Source of the DNA: Branchiostoma lanceolatum
Lineage: Eukaryota > Chordata > Leptocardii > Amphioxiformes > Branchiostomatidae
Direction of reading: 5' to 3'
Length of the DNA: 64,000 bases
Assembly (NCBI RefSeq): GCF_035083965.1
Contig: NC_089740.1
Location: 8,925,552 to 8,989,551, forward strand
The notes beneath the pieces were generated by a model. The model was given only the letters and a program-made list of their open reading frames with translations. It had not been told where the DNA came from and ran no database searches. The position numbers were made by a program, and so were the translations under genes. How positions within the stretch are numbered: position 1 is the first letter of the stretch; each line of letters begins with the position of its first letter. Shown in pieces: positions 1 through 63,393 of the stretch.

Positions 1-1434
1 ATGACATACTATTGAACATCCATGATGACAGGGACCCCCATGCAGACCCACAGACCACCTGTGGATTCAAACAGGGACCCCCCATGTAGACCCATAGGTC
101 ACTTGTGGATTCACTGCTTATTGAGGGGCTCTTGTGTGGTTTACTAATCACCAATTATTTGCTCTTGTTCACATGTACAGCCTGAGCGCTGAGGTCAGCT
201 AAATCAACAGGTGTTTTCAACTGTCTGGAACCGAACATTTGTGGACCTGATAAAAGGTACGTGCATACAGTTGTGAGTTAATATGGATTTCCCTACGCAG
301 GGTTCCGAACACTTTTTCAGCCATATGGCTCTGTTGCTAATACTGTGCAATGCACTCAGTAGAAAAATAAGCTTTAATGAATTGACCTATGATCAGACTT
401 TCTTTCATGATCCGTTATCTGAATTTGGTATTACCTAACATACAGCTTGATCTCAGTAGGTCTATTACTATGATCGGATGCGATCCAAAGATAATCAATT
501 ATCCTAATTGGATTTTACCAGCAACAAATGATACCCTGTTTATCTCTTTGCAATGATGAGGAATCCTGGTATATTTCAATGTCATACAGCAACTATATAA
601 ATTGTTACTCTCTAAGCAGAGGAATGGATCTGGTTTGTTTTTGACATGTTTTTATGCCTTTTTGTCAGGCTTTCTATTTTCTCCCGTTTTCCCAACAAAA
701 TCACCTAAAAACACAGCAAAAACCAGCCGGACCCATTCCTCTGCTTGGAGTAACAAATATGGTAGATCAAAATGCTCACAGACCTTAATGTTTTGTTTGT
801 GTTTAGCTAGATATGGCTGCTTAATGAAAATGAAATAACTGACAAATTTGTTAAATGCCATTTCTACTAATACATGTACATGAAACATAATCAAATGATG
901 ATTTGCATATGGTACCACGTACCATGCTTGTTATCTGGAGCTTAATTCTTAAGTCTGGACTAAGTTAACGTCATGGGTTCGAATCTCAGACTAGCCATCA
1001 GAATATCTATTCACTCTGATAAGTGGTGCAGTCCTACAGTCTCCTACACGTCAACCAAGCTGAAGACTCATTATCATTTTGGCATTAACACTTAAGTAAG
1101 AGAAGGGATTTGTCTCTCTGGTCAGTAGCCTAAATCTGCTTAACTTATAATACTTTATGCTGCTTATTGATAACATAGGCTGCAGTAATTCCTGGGTTCT
1201 CTGAAATTTTAAAGGAAATCTTTACCAAGAGGAAAAAATGAAAACAGTGTGTACCAAGGCACAGAATCATACTATTTTTGTTTTATTTTATCTTGCAGTT
1301 CAGCAGTTTTCTCTTAAAATCCGACAACCAACTACATTGTGATAAAACTGGTATAGCCTAACCAACTTAAGCTCAGAACTGTTTTACCATCTGTTATGTT
1401 TCTTTCATATTTGTTTTTTGTACTTAACTTCCAG
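1..1434. other. Region upstream of SQOR (5' flank and possible 5' UTR exons)
   Basis: I see no protein-coding exon here. A two-copy tandem repeat of about 43 bp lies at about 29-113. A foldback element lies at 606-752, and a SINE-like fragment with a tRNA B-box-like motif (GGGTTCGAATC) lies near 976-986. Possible non-coding 5' exon signals are a donor near 256 (AAAG|GTACGT) and an acceptor at 1434 (TTCCAG) just before the SQOR start. These splice sites are only suggested by sequence. Confidence 0.5.
606..752. mobile_element. Short foldback (MITE-like) element, copy 1 of a family
   Basis: The inverted ends begin TACTCTCTAAGCAGAGGA on the left and end with TCCTCTGCTTGGAGTA on the right. It belongs to the same family as the element at 24951-25076, which has a perfect 9-bp target duplication. 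Here the flanking 9-mers match only partly, so this copy looks older. It has no transposase ORF. The family is seen in the sequence; assignment to a Mutator-like group is inferred from the 9-bp duplication of the other copy. Confidence 0.7.
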
Positions 1435-1445
1435 AAAACTGAAGA

Positions 1446-6516
<5,071 letters not shown>

Positions 6517-13800: not shown

Positions 13801-16800
13801 AACAGGGTTAGATACAGAAGGCTTACATGTAGGTGTGAAAAGACAAATTTCAATGTGATCTTATTTCTTAACAAATTTGCAGTCGAGTGTCTGTGAAGCT
13901 GGTATAGCGTTACCAGACCGAGTTGACCAATAAGTCTTAGATTTTCCTGTTGAAACACAAAAATACAGAAAAATATACAAAATAGTGCAGACCTGAAGGC
14001 CACTAGCTCTGAGATGTCACCGTAGGGGTGGTTGCGGATTTCTGGACGGCTTGCATAGAAGTACTCCTTGTACTCATCCCACCACACCTCCACTACTCGC
14101 ATGTAATTCTAGTGGGGAAATACGCAATAAGTTATCAAAATATACACTCAGCACTTATCAGTCCACTGACAGCCTTTAAGTTAATCAAAGCCTTTGAAAT
14201 TAGTAAATATTTTACTATAATAATAAAAGTAATTCTAAGAAAGTTCTTAAATCAAATAGTGCAAAAGGCAAAGCAGAAGATCTAAACAGAAAGTGTCTTA
14301 GAACCCAGAAATGTTATCCTGTACTTCAAGACGTCAATCTTGAGCTGAAGACTTTTCTATTGTTCATAAAGTACTGTCAAATAAAGTAAAAACTTGTCTG
14401 GGTAAAAAATCATATTGTTACTGTTATTATTAGTATCATAAAGCTTCTAAATTGTGTACCTTACAGACCATAGATTTAACATTGCAATAAAAAAAGACTA
14501 TTCTGAATACAATTGGATCTAAATTTTAGAGTCTCTGACAAGCAAAACAATTTCTACTTACCTTGCATGCAATTATAAACTACATGTAGTACAATCAAGT
14601 TGCAATTGAAGCAGAAGGTTGCTAACAGAAGAGGCTAACAGAAGAGGCTAAGATCTGCCTCCAACTTTTAATCACTCTTTTTGTTGTACCTACTTTTCTC
14701 TTACATGTACCTGTCCAGTACTTTCTATCAGGCACTAAACTGTGAAACCTTGTCAAATCTATATTTCTACCCTATAGACCATCTATTTTCTATCAGGCAC
14801 AAACCTGTAGTACAAAAGACAACCTTGTCAAATCTATAACTTTACTCTACACAATCTATTTTCTATCGGGCACAAACCTGCAGCACCACAGACAACCCTG
14901 AGTTCGCGGGTGGAGGGTTCCCGGCCCAGCCCTCTAGGCGATAAATATGTCCGATTCGCGAACACGGCGTGAACAAAACTTCGCCTCCACACTGCCATAT
15001 CTACGGATAAAATATGGCGGGGACACTTTATAGCTTTGGGGATTTAAGTTAATATTAGGGTTAGGAAAAACTCAGCAATTATTGAATCGGCAATGTATGT
15101 TTTGTGAACTTGTGTGACATGTTTTGATTAATGTTTTGTGAGTGTTTTGCAGTGTTTTTTTTGAGCGGCTGTTGTAAAATTTTGTTTGTTTGTTTGTTTG
15201 TGTGAAAATATGTTACAAAGGATGGAGAAATTGTGGGATATGTATGAATGTGAAAAGCTTGCCCGTCTGTCAGCAGTGATTGTGCATATAAACTTCAGAA
15301 AATAATAGACTAAGTTTGGAGAAAAGGAGGAATAAATTTTCATTAGAAAGCCCTTATCTGGACACCACTGTTTGCAAAATGCACATTCACACCTCTTGGC
15401 CTAGTAGGGCATGCCAGCCTGTGACCAGTGTAGGGGTTTCGAAGATGCCTTACCCTCTGAGGTGTTAGAAACCCCTTTAAAAGATATCATCATCAACAAA
15501 TGATTTTTAACTCCGAGTCGGAGTCGATAAACATTATGCAATCCTTTTAAACTCAAAAGGTTTGCCCCAAATCAACAAAACCTTTGAACTGTTTTCTTGT
15601 CCACTTCTTAACACCAAGTCATAGGTTGTACCAGTCAGACTCTAACCAAAGGGGTGTTCTTTTCTATTCTGGACCAGACCAACCTGTATAACTATTGAAA
15701 ACCCCACGTGTTGGAGGGGGGGGTTTCCTGCCCACCCCTTCAGTCGGTAAATGTGTCCTACCCGACTGCAAGGAACAGACAACACCTGGCCTCCGCACTG
15801 CCACACCTACAATGCAAGATCCAAACAATCAACAAGACCTTTAAAGGTTTAAGGTAGTCCCATAGCCCTTTTTTGGGGCTGCAGGGACTCTGTGTCTAGG
15901 GCACAGTATTGGAAGACGAAGCCCAACCTAATCTCCTTCCACCGGCTTTTACCTCCCCAACCGAAGTCAGGTACCCATTTTTACACCTGGGTGGAGTGAG
16001 GAAAGTCGTGTTAAATGCCTTTCCAAATGGCACAACATCGGTGGCATGTCAGGGGATTTGAACCCAGGAACTCTGGGTTCTGGCCCAAGCGTGCCAACAC
16101 GACGCCACTAAAACGCTACAAAAGGCATTACCTATGTCCAATTTCCATAACACATCTTGGGTCAAACCACTCAAAACACAGGGGGTGTTCTAGGAGTGAC
16201 CAACCTGAGTAAACACAAACCCCCCCTGTTTGGGAGGGGGGTTGCCAGCCCACCCGTGCATCCGGTAAATGTGTCCCACATGACTGCAGGGAACAAACAA
16301 CACCTTGCCACCGCACATCCACACCTAAAATGTAAATCATGTAAGATCCACACTTTTAATCATATGTTTTCATCACGTTTTGGGCTGAGACTTCTTGTGG
16401 TTTCTTCCTCTGGATGCCGTGACCAAGCAGAACACTTTTTTTGACACAAATCTGTAGGACAGACCCAATGACAGCAATGCAAGCAGAAAATGCACAGGAA
16501 GACAACGAACTGAACAAAGCTTTGATACCTTGAAGTATCATAATACAAACAAGACAGCATGACAGAGGCCTTGAGGACAACCATTACACATACAAGGTTG
16601 AACCTCTGACACTGTCCGGTTGGACCAGATATCACAACAAAACACACATGATGTGGAAAATAAAGTCTTAGACAAAGCTCCAGGCATCCCAACTGACAAG
16701 GACACTTAAACATGCAACATGACCTCACACATGATAAAGCATGAACTTGGAAAGCATACAATGCACATAGGCTACATGTACATCTGTATATGTTACAGAT

Positions 16801-19800
16801 GCTTTATAAGACAGGGAGAAGATACAAACAGGATGCTCCTTTTGCGTGCACCTCAACTTCGAACATGCATGAAGTCCTCATCATCTTTCGAATGGCAGAA
16901 AAACTTTACACATTGTCACATGTTTTCTAATTATCATACACTAAGTGTTGATTAAAAAAAAACAAGTTGCCTAACCCCCCTAACTGGCCTGAGTTAGTAA
17001 GGAACTAATAAGCCTTGGCTATCATGTAGCCCCCTACTCGTTCCAATACTGTATGACTTTTGTGTGGTTCTTTAATGTATTTTGGTGTGGATTTATTTTA
17101 ATTGCATACAAAACTAGCTTTAATTTAATATCTCCTTTCTATTTATACATGATCATTTATTGGGGAATGATAGTTACTACATTAATTTGTGGAAGGATTC
17201 ACATAACAGGTGACTATCACCTTAAATATGTCCCCCAAAAACCAGACTGTAAGGATCCACTCACACCGGGAAGGAAGCCTCTTTTCGATAAGGGTTAATG
17301 TGCTTGAGGTATACTTTGAATTTAAATTTATGTCCCATACAAAAGGATGTCCCTTAACCAAAGCTAGGTAACAATTTCAACAGTGTGTTGAGTGAGGAAA
17401 TAGGACTAAGTGTAAAGTGACTTTCCCATTAGGGCACAGCACTGGGGCCTTATATAAGTCAACAACCCTGACCATATTGTCATTGACCACCTTACAGTGA
17501 CTGTAAGACTAGATTCCAGTATCTGCAACCATGTCAGGAGACAGCTTCTGCTTCCTTTTGCACCCATGAGATCATCAGAATGGTTACCATAGCATTAGGC
17601 ATCAGCCAAGCTTACAACAAGTTAATGCAGACTGTCCTGGAATCATGCAGGCACCTACTGGTGTAATTCAGCGGCTCTATGTTGGGTTAAGCGTTCCCCT
17701 GGGTGCCTGGCTTCACCCCAACAATTGCCCAGCCCCTATACAATCCAGCCTGCCAACCAACAACATCTAGCTTGTACATATATATACATGTATATATTGT
17801 ACCCCCCAACATGTACTAAGCCTGGCATCAATCCTATTCTTTTAAACTCTACAGTTGTTTTTCAGCAAAGGAAGCTGGATGTTGGGAGATGGCTGGATGT
17901 GGGGGAAAAAGAAAAGAATGGCTGGCCCCCAGGGTACATTGCTCAGGTTAGTGTCTACAGCACTGGCCATGGGTCAGGAGCAATCATGCTCTCCTTCTGC
18001 CATACGTTCTACAGAACACCCCTTTTGGTGAAGTAGACTGGTCCAAAATCTTAACAATTTTCTTGATGCATTGAAGAATCACAGAGAGGATTCGTTGATG
18101 CAAGTCTTCAATATGCTTTTAAATTAAGAAGTTTCATTAGATATAAATTTAGTAGAGTCTGGATTTGGTGAGGGTGACATCTGGGTTTGAAAGGACAGCT
18201 TCTGTTGATTTTCATGGGGGCTAAAATAGGGGTTTCAAAGATATATTGAATCTCATACTAAAAGATTCTTATTAAGTTATAATTCCAGACTCCACAGCCA
18301 AAAAAATATTAAATTTGAAATGTTTTTTTTTTCAAATTTCACAAATTCCTGTACCTCAAAAGGTTTGGGCACCAAATCAACCAAAACGTTTTGCTGACAT
18401 TTCTGCACATGGAATCTTGGGTTGTACCACTCTAAACACAGGGGTGTTCTGCCCTGTTCTGGGCCTGACCAACCTGTAGAACCACAGAGGACCCTGACTG
18501 CTGGGGAGGGGGGTTTCCTGCCCACCCCTTCAGCCGGTAAATGTGCCCCACCCGACTGCACGGGGTGAACAACACCTCGCCGCCGCACTGCCAGACCTAA
18601 AATGTAAGATCCAAACAATCAACAAAACAAGTGGGACTGTACATATAGCTAGTCTCCACCAAATACTCTCCACGCAGAGGTCGGTGGGGATGATTGTGAC
18701 CATCTTATCATATGCCCCGTTTTTTGTCGGCACTCCCCACCGTTGGGTAGGGTAATAGAGAGCGACAATAAATGGGGCATATGATAAAAAGATCACAATC
18801 TTCCCCACATTTTTATCATTATTTGCCCCGTATTTTGTCGGCTCTCCCCACAGTTGGTTAGGGTTAGAGAGCGACAAAAAATGATAAAAAGGTCACAATT
18901 TTCCCCGCCAACCTCAGTCTGCTTGGAGAGTACCACCATACTGACTGATGGCTATAGAGAGAATAATTTGCCATGAGAGTTTGGCCACTATAGGTTTTCA
19001 TTGAAGGAGGAATGTTAACCTTCCCGCGGACTAACTGTCCTAGCCAATTATTCCCCTTTTTTGCCAAATTCTCTGATCCATACTCCATAGGAAGGCCTGG
19101 TGGAGACTAGACTGTACCATCCTAAACACAGGGGTGTGGTAACCAGGACCAACCTGCATGAATACTGACTCCCCTGAGTTTTGGGGTTTGGGGTTTCCTG
19201 CCCACCCCTTCAGTCGGTAAATGTGTCCGACCCGACTGCAGGGAGTGAACAACACCTGGCCGCCGCACTGCCAGACCTACATTAAATTTTGTACATGCAT
19301 TATGTATGGGTAAAATATAATAATCATAAACCACATCATTAACCCATACAGCAACCACAAACAGGTCTCATCTTGGTTCCAGTTTTCAGATACTTTTATC
19401 TTTGACATAAATAGATTATTTGATAAACTTTCATAACATTCCATTACTTTAATCTACTTGGATTACATTTTGCAACTTTATTAGTTATCAATTAGAAAAC
19501 GAAACAGAGTTGCTAGAAAATATGCATCTGCATGGTTGGATTTCTAATTTGACATATTGTTTTGAAGATGTTCCTTTCCTCGGATTTGAGACAAAAGTGG
19601 TCTTTTCTTCAAATCCCTTGAAGCATTAAAGCAGAACAAAACTTGACATAATTGTTAACATGGTTAAGAATTCAATTCATAATCTTCCTTTGGGTTGAGC
19701 ATGACTGTTAGTCAGCAAGCGTGAAATTGTACATGTAACGTTGCCTGCTGGGCACATTTAGAACAACAAACGCCTTGTAAAAGCTGCAACGTTAACTGAA

Positions 19801-30052: not shown

Positions 30053-32089
30053 TCACGGTTGGAAGTTGGCAGGACGGACCATCATTTTGGACTTTTTCAG
30101 ATAGTAGTTATAAGAGCCTCCAAACGGGTTCCAAGCGATGCCGTAGCCATTGCGGACTGGTGTGGTCAGAGGGGCGGAGGTACGGGCCGTTCAGCTAGAT
30201 CAGGGCAGACCAGCTACAATATCCGTACCACCACCTTCCGGTTAAGGTACTTCGACCACCAGCGCAGGACCCGGACTGATATCCATCCCGGTCTACATCC
30301 CTTGCGCTGAAGCCCTGACCGTTTAGGTCGTAACCAGTTAACCCATCCCCAGCGGTCCCACTGTATCCACCAACAGACAGACGATAGTTGGAACTACTCC
30401 CTGTTGCGTACTTGACCACACTGGCCCAGTCCTCCAACTCTATATACAACTCATACGCATCCTGATCGGTCAAACGGTACATATTCTCCAACGCCAACCA
30501 CTATTCACCATTGGATGACCCAAACCCAAACCCAAACTTAAAGGCATTCCATGGTCTGTTAAAGTCGATCGATCCGTCAAACCTCCTCTGAATGACCGTC
30601 CACCCTCCCCCATCTGTGGTCTGATCACAGTATACAGAGATAGGACTGGTCATACCTACAGGCATTATGTCGTGTACACCACTAGACACAGCATTTAACA
30701 TAGTCAATGCTGTATGGATGTCAGAACAGTCGGAAAAGTAATTTGTGCTCCCGCTGAGGGCCAGGGAAGCCAGATCGTTCTGAGGAGGTTTTCTGTCAAC
30801 ATCATCTGACTGGGGCTTCTCGTCGTTGTTGGCTTGGTCCTCTGTCTCCGGAGACAGCAGCGATTCTGTGGGGAAATAACAGTAAGTCAGAAGACCCTTA
30901 CAGAAAATATCACAAACTTGTCAATCTCGTAGGAAAATCAGAGAAGTGAGAAAAAAAGACCTTTGGTTCTGAGCCCTGGTAATTGAAAAAATACGTTCGA
31001 AAGAAGATTCTAATCATTCGCCTTTTACTTGGACATTGAGTATTCGGTCCCTCACTCATTTGTGAATGATAATGATAAAAGTGATCTTCCATGACTTTAC
31101 TTTTAGTGAGCTTGAACTTTAGTGTTTTATTCATATCAATGGAAAGGACTACATAAATACATTCCAAATTGTAATCTCCAATGAGATCAACTGGTCAGTT
31201 GTACTGCTTTTGCCTGTTGGATACTGTCATTCACCGATAGATCTGCTTGGAGATTATCCAAAATGCCTTCGCCAATGTACTCACCACAGATGGTGGGGTC
31301 GAGTGAGTTGAGCTCGTCGCCTGCACCTCTACACAGGTCCTTCATCGGGGAGGGGAAATCGGGGCTGGATTTGGTCAGAGCTGCAGGTGGAAAAACATCA
31401 CATGAGCTGTCTTAAAAATGATTCCATTGACTCCTACATCTCAGTATGGAACAAAATTGAATGATTTTGCATCGTCTGCAATTGACCCTGCAGAACCCCT
31501 GTGAATGTTGAAGGAATTAGATTGTGTGACTTTAAACATTGTATAAAAGTAAAACGCAGCGTTATCCGATGTTCAACAACAACAATGATGGTGTCAATCA
31601 ATTAACATCTAACGTTAAGTAACGTTAGTACTGCGCAGTTATCATTAGATTACCCTGTGACAAAAATCTCGAGTCTGAAACCAGATTTCTGATGTTTTCA
31701 TGCTCAATGACAAGAGACGGATATATGTTGAGGGCAACTTGAAAGAACGCGTATAATACTATAATTGTTGCATAATATAAGAAGTAACGTTAAATGTTGT
31801 ATTTTGGTTTCCTACAATCTTTAGACATAGAGCTACCTTGTACAACTTTTCCAATAGTTTGCCAGACTTACGAGATATCACAGTATCCATTCCCGGACTA
31901 AAACAACGGTATTTGAGGTCGTAGCATTTATATATTATATAGTATTCAAAACTGACCTATTACTTTACATCCTTCTCGGATGAGACACAGTTCCAAGGTG
32001 GACCGCTGCTGTGCGCAACGGTCTCCACCCTGTGCTGTTGAACAGACGGCGGTGAAGGCAGCAGTGATGATTAGGATTAGGTACAGCAT
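30053..32089 (-). pseudogene. Fibrinogen-related-domain lectin, copy 1, broken
   Basis: Three exons: 32089-31957, 31380-31285, 30865-30053. The reading is a signal peptide (MLYLILIITAAF), a short Cys-containing linker, then a FReD with [20 protein letters not shown] and LENMYRLTDQDAYELYIE. The calcium-site region (DRDGYQSGSCA) and KSKMMVRPANFQP at the C-terminus are recognisable. There are three lesions. Codon 30503-30501 is TAG where copy 2 has CAG (GEQWLGLEN). A second TAG lies at 30197-30195. A frameshift follows about 45-50 bases further on. FReD proteins are secreted lectins binding acetylated or sugar ligands. The splice sites and promoter look normal, so the decay is probably recent. 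It is most likely a pseudogene; assembly error cannot account easily for three separate lesions. Confidence 0.85.
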
Positions 32090-34004: not shown

Positions 34005-35680
34005 TCACGGTTGGAAGTTGGAAGGACGGACCATCATTTTTGACTTTTTCAGATAGGTCCTATAGGAGCCTCCAAACTGGAGCCAATAGATACCATAACC
34101 ACTATGACTGGTACGGTCAGAGGGGCGCAGGTACGGGCCGTTCAAGGCGGACGCACCGCAGGACTTGTACCACCACCCGCCCGTGTAAATACTCATACTG
34201 CTAGCGCAGGACCCACTATAGGCATCCCGGTCTGAATTCCTAGCACTGAAAGCCTGACCCGTTAGGTACGCGCTAGATGATGAGTGTGATAAGCCGAACC
34301 CATCCCCAGCGGTCCCACTGTACCCGCCAACAGACAGACGATAGCTGGAATAACTCCCCACCGAGAATGACGAGTACTTGGCGTACTTGACCACACTGTC
34401 CCAATCCTCCAACTCTATATACATCTCATACGCATCCTGATCAGTCAAACGGTACATATTCTCCAACCCCAACCACTGCTCCCCATTGGCTGACCCAAAC
34501 CCGTACCTAAAGTCGTTATAAGGTCGGTTAAAGTCGATCGACCCGTCAAACCTCCTCTATGACCGTCCACCCTAGCTCCCCCATCTGTGGTCTGATCACA
34601 GTATACAGAGATAGGGCTGTCTAGACCTACAGGCATTATGTCGTAAACACCACTAGACACAGCATTGAACAGGGATAGCGCCGTGTGGATCTCAGAACAG
34701 TCGGAAAAGTAGTTTGTGCGCCCGCTGAGGACCAGGGAGGCCAGGTAGGTCTGAGGAAGCTGTAGCTGCCCATCCACATCGCCTGGGTGGGGCTTCTCGC
34801 TGTCGTGTTGGTCCTCTGCCTCTGGAGACAGGAGTGATTCTGTAGGGAAACAACAGTTCGATGAAGGACCTGTGCAGAGCTGCAGGGGACAAGCTTAACT
34901 CACTCAACCCAGACATCTGTGGTGAGTACAAAGCTGAATGGGTCCGATTTTGTCACATCTTTCTTCCCAACAACATAACGACGGGTGGAGGGTGAAGGAA
35001 ATATTGCCTGTCATCGTCATTTAAATGTCTTCTTTTGTGCGTTTTTGTGATATTTGGTTTTGGACCACATCTTGCATTTTCCTAGTTGTCTCAGGCCTGT
35101 CAAATGACCATGAACCTAACTCACTGAAAGTTAGGACATAGGAGATTAACAAATGGGACCAAACATGCTACTTTATCTTTGCAATCTTCATTCTTTTTAA
35201 TGTAGTTTCATGTCTCCAACTTCCCACAAACTTTTCACAAACCTGAGGTTTTCTTTTCTATGTCTTCTTTTGTTGGTATGCAACAAGAAAGCAAAGGTAT
35301 ACTGATGAGCCACCAAATGCCCATTCAGCCTTGTACTCACCACAGATGTCTGGGTCGAGTGAGTTAAGCTTGTCCCCTGCAGCTCTGCACAGGTCCTTCA
35401 TCGAACTGACATCGTCATCAGGGCTGGGTTTGGTCAGAGCTGCAAGTAGAAAATCATCGAATGAGAGGTCTACTTAGGTCCGAGGTTGAAATGATAGAAT
35501 ATGAGAGGTCTACCTAGGTCCGAGTATTAGCATTCAACACTCACCGATTCCCCGGCATCCTTCCCTGATCTTACACAGGTCCAAGGCTCGCCAGGTACGG
35601 TGCTGTTGGTTCCCGCCTTGTGCTGTTCCATGGACTGCAGTGCTGCAGACAGCAGTGATGAGTAGGATCAGGTACAGCAT
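34005..35680 (-). pseudogene. Fibrinogen-related-domain lectin, copy 2, frameshifted
   Basis: Exons 35680-35545, 35439-35341, 34839-34005 repeat the copy 1 structure: signal peptide MLYLILLITAVCSTAV, Cys linker, FReD. Near 34557-34576, copy 2 has a 4-base insertion (GCTA on the minus strand) and, about 15 bases later, loses TC relative to copy 1. The frame shifts within the GGWTVIQRR region and stops soon after. The remaining 155 codons, from LENMYRLT through DRDAYSGSCA and WWYKSCGASALNGPYL to RPSNFQP, are open in the other frame. Everything else is intact. It is either a young pseudogene, or a functional gene mis-assembled over a few bases. Confidence 0.8.
34854..34942 (+). repeat. Inverted copy of FReD copy 2 exon 2 inside its intron 2
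   Basis: These 89 bases match the reverse complement of 35320-35408 (exon 2, its donor and 20 bp of intron) with two mismatches. The inverted copy ends about 14 bases from the acceptor of exon 3. A transcript would carry exon 2 and a complementary copy about 380 bases apart, able to form an almost perfect duplex. Confidence 0.93.
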
Positions 35681-60500: not shown

Positions 60501-63393
60501 ATATCCAGAAAACTGATTTTGGAATATTCCTCTGCGTTGCTTACAAAGGAAGCTCTAAACCAACCTCATATACACAGATTTACCAACCTGATGAAACTGT
60601 TCACAGATATTCACAAGAATAGTTTTCCTCACCATTTTCACACCTCTCCCCTGTGTACCCCGGTGGACAGTGGCATCTCCCGGTCACATGATCACAGCTG
60701 TTGCCATGGTTACAGGCACACTTCTGGGAACACTGGTCGCCATAGAAACCAAGCGGACACATGGCTGTGCAGCTACATGGAATAGGAGAAGAAAATTTAT
60801 TAATGCCACGGACAAACAGTCATGTTTTTTCTATCATATTCATAGCTCAACAAAAAAAAGAGTTTGAACATCTCACACCTCTGTGAAATACTTTTTAGAA
60901 CTTCCTGCTTAATTGCAGTTCATGCAAATAAGGTTTTGATAAACATCACACACGTCTATTGATCACCTCCTGTCATGCTACAGTGAACGTGACTAACATA
61001 TGAAAAATATATAAATGTGAAAACACACAACAGACAGATAGACCAAAACAATACTCCTGTGAATTAGTAGCCTCTTCCATTGACCCCATGACCTGGAATG
61101 TCTGTCAGCTGTAGACAAGTTCACAAGGACTAATTTTACCAACTCTGAACTCCACTTCCTGTCACTTCCACAACTCTGACCTTTTGCCCTTTGTGACTTC
61201 CAGTGACTTTGGTGAGAGATGCTTATATAGCATATGAAAATAACTGATTCAGAAGAAACACAGGCAAACAAACAGCCCTCACCTCTCTCCCTGCCAGCCA
61301 GGGTTACACATGCACTTCCCATCTCTGGTCCGACACACGGAGTTGTTACCAGGGCAGTGACAGCTGAACAGACACCCCGGTCCGTACCGACCCTCCGAAC
61401 ACTCCGACTCACACTGGGCGCCATGGAAACCCGCATCACAGCTGGAGAAATGGAAAAAAAGCAAGCCTTTAAAAAAAATCCTAGCTTTGAAAGTAAGTAA
61501 TGAAATAAAATATGATGGTGGCAAGTAAAAACGATGATCTCATAACTCAATGAAATATAATTTTTTGTAAATTTCTTGACAAAATATAACATAACCATCT
61601 AATTCACAATGTATTCTGATGGTCTCTTCATTGCAATCATAACAAAAAGATGGCAGACGTCAATCGGTCATACCCATACCCATACTTCCTACTACATACT
61701 GCCTTGTGACTTTTCCAGTCCCAAAGACAAAAATAACAGCACTTACCTGTAGGATGTATGTCAAAGCTGGAAATTGCAGAAACACACAGAAACACACACA
61801 GACAGACAGACAAGTCAAAAACAATACTTCACTCCCTTGGGGTGAAGTTATGAATCAACTAATCTTTTAGATTAATGAAATGAAACATCTGCTTTAGAGC
61901 TGGAGGTAAAACAATAACTTACAGACAGGCCCCAGTGAAAGGGTTGCAGGTACCATGTTCTGCACAGTCGCACTGTAGCTCACAGTCCAACCCAGCTGTA
62001 CCTCCTTGACAGGGGATGTCACAGTGTTCTCCTCTCCAACCTGTACATAATACAGCACACATTAACACGTCATCAACACAGATGAGCTGGGATGCACCTG
62101 ATATCCCTGAGGTACAGTAAATAGCCGCTAGGAGGCCCATTATCGAACTTGACCTTCCTATTCCCAACTCTATTCACCAGAGTACTATAAATTTTATCAC
62201 AATCTATTCACAGCATCTCGAGTTATCCTGGTAACAAACAAACATACTAACAAACATAAAAGGTCCGCTACAGTAAAGTAGAAAGCCCCCAGGAGGCCCA
62301 TTTACAAACATGATCTTCGTCTCCCCGACATCTACTTACCTGCAAAAAATCATGAACATCCATCCATCCATAGCTTCAAGAGTTATGCCGTCTACATAGT
62401 TACACAGTCACTCCACCATGGCATAACCGAAAACATAATCTTCTTGAAAATGTGCTCACCTGCGGTACAGTTACAGAAGCCGTCCGTGCCGCGGCAGGTG
62501 GCGCCGTGCTGACAGCTGCAGTCCTCCAGACAGTCCTGCCCGTGTTTACCAGCTGGACAGGTGGCAATGCAGCTGCACACAAAACAACAAACAGGAAAGT
62601 TGGTTAAATGCCATGAGAGAAAGTGAAAGTCATCTCAAAAAAGTTTAGCTCAAATGAACTGAATGAACAGTTGAGATACTTAAAACCGCCACTATGTTTA
62701 ATACAGGTTCACTGTACCAGCCAGGGAAAGTCTCCTAGCTCTTTCCAACAAGTACAATATAATGAACAGTGGACCATGGCTTAACATCCTGTCCTAGGGA
62801 CTGCAACCCTTTCCAGTAGTTTGCATGACTTCTCGGTCGAGTCGCTAACCACTCAGACTACACTACTAACTGTATGCAAGCTACTACAGAATAAAAATTA
62901 CAACACAAATCAATTGATTATTCAAATATTGGTCAATAACAAACAAAATTTCATAATCATATTCATAATGGTGCTTGATTGTTTTAACTTTGATAAACCA
63001 GTCTGAACTTACTTTGACCCCATATAGCCAGGAGGACATCTATCAGCACAGGTCGGGCCCTGAAAAACAGTAGGAATTAAACGTTTGGTCAACAAAAATC
63101 ATCTGACTTACAGGTACAGAAGCTATTATAATCTTGAAACATTCTATAAGGTCCACAAACTTTATGAGTTTGTCCAGATCACATAGATTAAAATTGATAG
63201 ACTATCCCTTAGTATATATGTAATAGCCTTTGGCTATAATATGTCAGCCTTTGTCAAGTAAAGAATTTAAGATGAAATTAAAAAAAAAAGAATAACAAAA
63301 TAAGTGAGTCTCTTACCCTCCATCCATTGGAACAGGTGCAGTAGTTTGCTCCTGTGCATGTTCCGTGTTCCGAACACTCCGGATCACAAGTAG
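57557..63393 (-). CDS. Multiple EGF-like-domain receptor (MEGF/SCARF/PEAR1-like), 3' part
   Basis: Single-pass membrane receptor; the 5' end is outside the window. Exons: 63393-63317, 63059-63013, 62572-62460, 62040-61923, 61441-61283, 60772-60633, 60120-59955, 59492-59368, 58869-58738, 58497-57557, giving 671 aa. The extracellular part is a run of laminin-type EGF repeats, for example CADRCPPGYMG, CSCQHGATC, CDCAEHGTC and CDAGFHGAQC. A 23-residue membrane segment (FYIIVAVVMGVLLIVLILS..) is followed by RRRGK. The tail of about 430 residues has no kinase. It has a Lys-rich block and many phosphotyrosine-like motifs: two YEDM (PI3K p85 type), YENV and YVND (Grb2 type), YEDV, YEDI and YIGN. Family members act in engulfment and adhesion. 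I cannot tell which vertebrate orthologue it is. Confidence 0.87.
60236..60450 (-). repeat. tRNA-derived SINE-like copy
   Basis: On the minus strand it reads CCTCTGGACC..GTTCGAATCCCGGCTG, then AAAGGGTCGCTGTCC, GGGACATTAAGC and GTGGTCCACTG. It is the same family as 41780-41960, within an intron of the EGF-receptor gene. Confidence 0.65.
62693..62875 (-). repeat. tRNA-derived SINE-like copy
   Basis: Shares CAGGTTCACTGTACC, AGCTCTTTCCAACAAGTACA, GTGGACCATGGCTTAA and AACCCTTTCCAGTAG with the 60236-60450 copy in the same orientation. The tRNA-like head is partly lost. Confidence 0.6.

Follow-up and report, generated by a model that had tools for sequence, protein, structure and literature searches.

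The lancelet Branchiostoma lanceolatum carries, within the 64,000-nucleotide stretch of contig NC_089740.1 analyzed here (the window), a gene closest to GALNT7 in which a single exon, exon 9, is present in five tandem versions. This exon supplies the catalytic flexible loop of an N-acetylgalactosaminyltransferase (GalNAc-transferase), as well as the histidine of VGH. All five copies, 9A to 9E, are open, have phase 0 at both ends, with AG before and GT after, and join exons 8 and 10 at codon boundaries. We think it probable that they are mutually exclusive loop cassettes, through which one gene would produce several GalNAc-transferases differing in their loop and hence in acceptor preference or rate.

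The array is a robust observation. The original prediction, made from these letters alone, had placed five intact copies between exons 8 and 10, and their coordinates, AG/GT ends and open frames were all confirmed (Table 1); its list of the positions that vary among them also agrees with our alignment of the copies. Scanning the 64 kb with 16 exon peptides (tblastn, exons 2-13) and 16 DNA exons (blastn) returned these five copies of exon 9 and no sixth one in the window, intact or decayed. The same queries found no second intact copy of any other exon from 2 to 13 in the window; what they did find were degraded pieces of exons 7 and 12. Cross-copy tblastn E-values among the exon-9 copies range from 2e-17 to 1e-24, which excludes chance likeness. 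We are thus dealing with tandem homologous exons of the same phase flanked by constant exons, the layout of mutually exclusive clusters. The metal-site residues are retained with every copy, as DSH in exon 6 (LDSHCEV) and VGH or IGH in exon 9, with GH at positions 17-18 in all five.

Splicing exons 1-8, 9B and 10-13 gives a protein of 694 residues identical to the database entry P0002, named N-acetylgalactosaminyltransferase 7-like isoform X2 of B. lanceolatum. The product contains PF00535 (Glycos_transf_2), PF02709 (Glyco_transf_7C) and PF00652 (Ricin_B_lectin), all above cut-off, and the solved structure nearest to it in sequence is 6iwq, N-acetylgalactosaminyltransferase 7 (E 3e-222), followed by T10 (2e-118). 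Our protein database search compared the best 120 of 4796 proteins, clustered at 90% identity, and the named matches among them are mostly GALNT7. Among subfamilies the gene is closest to GALNT7 (GT27), as judged from best matches. The decayed fragments in this gene are a partial exon-7 copy of 79 nucleotides with an in-frame stop (21649-21571, minus strand, 92% identical) and a partial exon-12 copy of 45 nucleotides (11821-11777, minus strand, 91% identical); exon duplicates thus arise and die in lancelet GALNT7.

Is the array restricted to this genome? Eight of the proteins compared are lancelet GALNT7 models (P0001 to P0008). Grouped by identity outside exon 9, P0003 goes with P0008 (418/419), a B. 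floridae record, and P0001 with P0004-P0007 (417-419/419); P0001, P0006 and P0007 are B. belcheri records, while a record of a floridae x belcheri hybrid gave P0004 and P0005. The array, sought in other Branchiostoma, is present in a second species, B. belcheri, according to its protein models. In P0001, units resembling A, C, D and E follow one another as they do in B. lanceolatum; between the first two lie the B tail, read in a different frame, and the intron behind B. B. belcheri therefore appears to have all five copies in unchanged order. Pairing the copies of the two species by position gives the top summed identity of the 120 possible pairings (181, against 172 for the next), and tree support for copy orthology is 96 for C, 96 for E and 81 for D, with A split (87) and B unresolved. 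Outside exon 9, identity between the two species is 218/226 in catalytic exons 5-8 and 186/193 in exons 10-13. A second search, with residues 488-684 of P0001, gave 367 proteins at E<=1e-10; among the best 120 of these, which were compared, no multi-unit protein other than P0001 was found. The single exon 9 that had been noted for vertebrate GALNT7 holds for 184/184 non-lancelet proteins among the matches listed in both searches, and 120/120 proteins of a further listing have one unit.

The lancelet proteins are predicted gene models whose read support is not visible, and the 90% clustering may hide isoforms. With this in mind, seven of the eight contain a single copy (B in five, C in one, E in one) and the eighth, P0001, contains four units. 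Models of the B. belcheri type differ in their choice, P0006 (X1) having E and P0007 (X2) having B, and likewise P0004 (X2) having B and P0005 (X3) having C. Alternative use of the exon-9 copies, as originally proposed, is thus very probable from sequence: it agrees with the single-copy models for B, C and E, whereas A and D never stand alone in a model. Seven of the eight models would also fit with one copy per mRNA, and A and D may be used in the same way.

How old are the copies, and are they constrained? B. lanceolatum is grouped with B. floridae, and B. belcheri with B. japonicum, in PMC6305399, which puts the early Branchiostoma splits at ~87 million years and describes fast protein evolution in B. 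lanceolatum. The split between B. belcheri and B. floridae is given as 120+/-10 million years in PMC4284660, according to which introns of these two species show virtually no similarity and mean protein identity is 81.2%. Against this published background, the 80-85% identity of A, C and D between species looks like ordinary protein-level constraint, while B and E look tightly held. A ratio of nonsynonymous to synonymous substitutions (dN/dS) near 1 for A-D across lancelet species looks unlikely from this protein-level comparison, since A, C and D have kept open frames and 80-85% identity where neutral lancelet DNA has reportedly lost similarity. Copy against copy, A-D give NG86 dN/dS values of 0.20-0.56, and the pairs A-E and B-E 0.07-0.08; dS of E to A and B is ~2, and is not estimable for C-E and D-E. 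Constraint among A-D is visible in codons 1-28 (dN 0.02-0.16). Copy E is perhaps the oldest, since it has the fewest residues beyond the vertebrate range (6, against 8-13) and a dS of ~2 to A and B.

Splice-swapped catalytic loops are already known in the GalNAc-transferase family, which contradicts the original statement that no report of such cassettes was known. A preprint (PMC12776162) describes Drosophila pgant5A and pgant5B, of a GALNT1 orthologue (UniProt Q6WV17-1 and Q6WV17-2 as cited there), as differing by an alternatively spliced catalytic flexible gating loop. In its account, the spliced PGANT5 segment spans residues 398-457, S420 of PGANT5B corresponds to A349 of GalNAc-T1, a difference at residue 419 alters kcat/KM on basic mucin peptides, and GalNAc-transferases are said to have no consensus acceptor motif. 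In our HMMER alignment with 8v9q, position 1 of exon 9 corresponds to GalNAc-T1 residue 327 and position 23 to A349. Residue 420 thus falls on position 23, so the pgant5 segment would start at exon-9 position 1 if no indel lies between. In both systems the alternative exon covers the catalytic flexible loop with the same start residue (the pgant5 borders being taken from published numbering), and the differing PGANT5 loop residues 419-421 align with exon-9 positions 22-24, which read LKG, LKG, MHG, LKG and LEG in A to E. From position 34 onward, the non-lancelet loop is nearly constant and the lancelet copies differ. By analogy, the five loops may differ in specificity. There are differences, however: the fly gene has two versions and the lancelet five, in the GALNT1 and GALNT7 subfamilies respectively; the alternative stretch in the fly is longer, taking in helices I and II; and fly function was tested in vivo and in vitro, while the lancelet loops are known from sequence alone. 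The fly gene is not orthologous to lancelet GALNT7, and the resemblance is one of working, not of descent.

In the mechanism we propose, one exon-9 copy at a time would be joined between exons 8 and 10. The products would be glycopeptide GalNAc-transferases sharing fold, metal site and lectin domain but having distinct loops, and these would confer distinct acceptor preferences or rates, as the two pgant5 loops do. A shared intronic element may help to choose the copy.

Such an element is suggested by the introns downstream of the copies. Between intron positions +7 and +76, which excludes the donor hexamer, A-D are alike in all six pairs (0, 2, 0, 0, 0 and 0 of 500 shuffles score as high), and pairs with E are alike in none of four (489, 59, 84 and 65 of 500). 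Upstream flanks are alike only for B-C and B-D (0/500 shuffles) and, weakly, C-D (10/500). Gapped alignments of the whole flanks give 80-85% identity for three of the A-D pairs and 62-68% for the remaining three. Behind 9B, 18 of 19 off-frame codons are unchanged in B. belcheri; as a control, the best ungapped reading behind exon 7 keeps 9 of the first 19, although there is just this one control, and its intron seems to bear an indel. We regard the shared A-D stretch as a candidate splicing element, part of whose likeness duplication and conversion could explain. The donors are GTTGGT in A-D and GTTTGT in E. A hairpin that would hide the donor (G|GUUG with CAACC) is a candidate only and is not established. 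Its five named pairs stay paired in 20 of 20 cells across A-D, four of them through one-sided wobble, against 20-60% when slid by 1-3 columns. However, fold energies are not below those of shuffles (z -0.7 to 0.6 for A-D), the RNAalifold consensus picked other pairs, none of which changed on both sides, and in the hairpin itself no pair changed on both sides and the donor side is invariant.

Several observations concern the surroundings of individual copies. Immediately before both 9B (18597-18623, minus strand) and 9D (15807-15833, minus strand) stands one and the same stretch of 18 bases, GTTGATTGTTTGGATCTT; allowing up to 3 mismatches, it has no further occurrence in the window, and 2 of 100 shuffles contained two matches. 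The 3' end of 9E and its donor are duplicated ~73 nucleotides downstream (14900-14719, minus strand, 77% over 119 nucleotides), forming a decoy donor, and read-through from 9E to this decoy meets a stop. The A-B intron contains nested inverted repeats with arms of 46, 35, 19 and 15 nucleotides (18664-18932), like those of foldback elements or miniature inverted-repeat transposable elements.

A number of points weigh against mutually exclusive loop cassettes of distinct function. Copy usage is read from predicted models and not from RNA, and A and D occur in none of the eight models as the single copy, only in P0001 (the clustering may hide some). The B. belcheri sequences of A and D come from P0001 alone, a model that strings together four copies and an off-frame B tail. 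At position 23, A to E have K, K, H, K, E in B. lanceolatum and K, K, V, E, E in B. belcheri; D thus changes from K to E between species, so that charge is no fixed property of this copy. The same position is free in vertebrates too, and non-lancelet proteins as a whole have 8 residue types there in 36 distinct variants (183/184 proteins), so no single position should be over-read. A, C and D evolve faster than the rest of the enzyme, and the last 12-13 codons among A-D give a dN/dS of 0.36-1.5, so this tail may be relaxed rather than tuned; on ratios from 12-13 codons, positive selection on the loop tails is at most possible. Docking/selector pairing of intron 8 or the E-10 intron with the copy flanks was not found, in one species and at low power (best 4-of-5 duplex energies reached by 5, 8, 10 and 4 of 12 shuffles in four tests). 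Nor is exclusivity imposed by the layout of the array: every copy is a multiple of three in phase 0, so that frame is no barrier to double inclusion (a point against this one means of enforcement and no other), and the introns between copies (A-B 557, B-C 2149, C-D 398, D-E 683 nucleotides) are too long to prevent joint splicing sterically. Exclusivity, if real, would therefore need active control.

Part of this evidence would be compatible with a smaller set of working alternatives, E and B and perhaps C, with A and D minor or fading and seldom spliced. None of the seven single-copy models uses A or D, interspecies identity is 80-85% for A, C and D against 98-100% for B and E, the polypyrimidine tract of 9A is poor (CAAAATTTAATGTAG), and the decayed copies of exons 7 and 12 show that duplicates die in this gene. 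However, both species keep A and D open across a split put at ~87 or, for B. belcheri and B. floridae, 120 million years; the two copies have AG/GT ends in the window and are identical at 26 of their first 28 codons between species. Their chance survival at 80-85% is very unlikely above 0.2 substitutions/site in a neutral simulation of 4000 trials, where a copy stayed open and at least 33/41 identical in a fraction 0.0003 of cases at 0.3 substitutions/site and 0.33 at 0.1; the argument thus depends on the published divergence. On balance we consider this restricted set somewhat unlikely. It is also unlikely, in our view, that gene conversion homogenized the copies and so, in place of selection on a splicing element, accounts for what their flanks and exon heads have in common. 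The DNA of A, B and D is 86-93% identical over codons 1-28 and 62-67% over the tails, and A of B. lanceolatum is slightly nearer to B. belcheri B (35/41) than to B. belcheri A (33/41), both as conversion would have it; yet the stretch after 9B is conserved between species, which conversion within one genome fails to explain.

Combined inclusion, giving lengthened loops as P0001 reads, seems highly improbable. The copies, at 120-123 nucleotides each and phase 0-0, would indeed join in frame, and P0001 joins four units; but the off-frame B tail and the intron behind it point to a computed model, and all 184 non-lancelet proteins and the 120 of the further listing have one unit. A doubled loop with a second VGH would moreover be expected to spoil the active site. 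An assembly artefact, or a duplication so recent that no selection has acted, would fit the partial likeness that the introns flanking A-D retain. But the array recurs in another record, from B. belcheri, while copies B, C and E are found in further lancelet records, and the dS of ~2 between E and A or B is not recent; as far as they go, these records already refute this explanation. Mutually exclusive loop cassettes thus stay the explanation that we favor. A broader joint reading is more tentative, and we would not put it at even chances: the exon starting with IWQCGG may serve GalNAc-transferases as a reusable cassette for specificity, which fly pgant5 and lancelet GALNT7 would have duplicated independently; in lancelets, five differently charged loops would each have been kept by selection for ~100 million years, with a tissue-wise choice aided by the A-D intronic element, and one follow-on glycosyltransferase would serve several glycopeptide or mucin classes.

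Exon swapping has been seen elsewhere in this gene and family. Equal-length isoform pairs of vertebrate GALNT7 differ only in exon 7 in all four pairs compared (P0029/P0054, P0030/P0070, P0033/P0051 and P0067/P0099), and the models P0009, P0012 and P0015 contain both exon-7 versions. Vertebrate GALNT7 therefore does have an alternative exon pair, which bears on the earlier claim of novelty. It resembles the lancelet array in offering alternative exon versions in the same gene, but at exon 7 rather than exon 9 and in two versions, whereas in the lancelet window a single good exon 7 is accompanied by a decayed, stop-bearing fragment. These exon-7 versions are ~61 residues long; the pair occurs in bony fish and shark, and both versions are also found in a turtle model. 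Splicing of Drosophila pgant9 reportedly affects the lectin domain, unlike the catalytic-loop exon of the lancelet. This gene, splice forms of which are described in PMC6115407, is nonetheless another GalNAc-transferase altered by splicing, and skipping of exon 6 is described for human GALNT7 (PMC13039441). Tandem duplicated exon substitutions are listed for GALNT13, Pgant5 and gly-5, in vertebrates, arthropods and nematodes, in PMC9741552. These are likewise tandem exon swaps within the family; for GALNT13, however, three of four resolved isoform pairs swap the C-terminal lectin end, and the fourth is an insertion near residue 104.

Outside the family, Dscam is a multi-copy cluster of mutually exclusive exons. 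D. melanogaster mrp has a cluster of 8 interchangeable exons (PMC9741552). As in these clusters, the lancelet copies are homologous exons in tandem that share one phase and lie between constant exons; the difference is the docking/selector pairing, for which our search of lancelet GALNT7 was negative within the limits given above. No open-licence PMC paper mentioning Branchiostoma and GALNT7 together was found, which is weak evidence of absence. As far as the literature was searched, what is new is the number of versions (five), their occurrence in GALNT7 and in a chordate, and their presence in two lancelet species. Five natural versions of one 41-residue loop in an enzyme that is otherwise constant constitute a ready-made comparative set for isoenzyme specificity, which is hard to dissect; how GalNAc-T7 recognizes neighboring glycosites is stated to be unknown in PMC9996832. 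Together with pgant5, the array suggests two or more independent duplications of this exon. Lancelets may gain by splicing a diversity of O-glycosylation for which vertebrates have many genes.

Table 1. Coordinates of the GALNT7 exons and shared intronic elements in the window
Feature	Position	Strand	Remarks
GALNT7 coding exons 1-13	28805-10826	-	exon 1 = 28805-28704, exon 13 = 10960-10826
Exon 8, constant exon upstream of the exon-9 array	20862-20745	-	
Exon 9A	19276-19154	-	123 nt; counterpart in B. belcheri P0001, 33/41 identical
Intron downstream of 9A, shared element (GTTGGTC...ACACCCCTGTGTTTAG...TGGTACA)	19083-19153	-	alignment
Exon 9B	18596-18474	-	123 nt; copy used in P0002; 40/41 identical in B. 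belcheri
Intron directly downstream of 9B, element common to A, C, D	18416-18472	-	alignment and B. belcheri off-frame codons
Exon 9C	16324-16205	-	120 nt, one codon shorter; counterpart alone in P0005, 32/40 identical
Intron downstream of 9C, shared element	16135-16204	-	alignment
Exon 9D	15806-15684	-	123 nt; counterpart in P0001, 35/41 identical
Intron downstream of 9D, shared element	15608-15683	-	alignment
Exon 9E	15000-14878	-	123 nt; 41/41 identical in B. belcheri P0006
Exon 10, constant exon downstream of the exon-9 array	14108-13993	-	

Other putative genes lie in the window. Open reading frame (ORF) pieces at 1346-5984 on the plus strand look like those of a sulfide:quinone oxidoreductase; a Pfam search with two of these pieces gave no match. 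On the minus strand, an ORF at 34005-34556 contains a fibrinogen C-terminal domain (PF00147, E 4e-41), and the ORF at 30195-30920 resembles it by eye, perhaps forming a tandem pair of fibrinogen-related genes. Further along the same strand (60601-62634), cysteine-rich EGF-like ORFs, one of which was tested and matched PF00053 above cut-off, look by eye like a multi-EGF gene.

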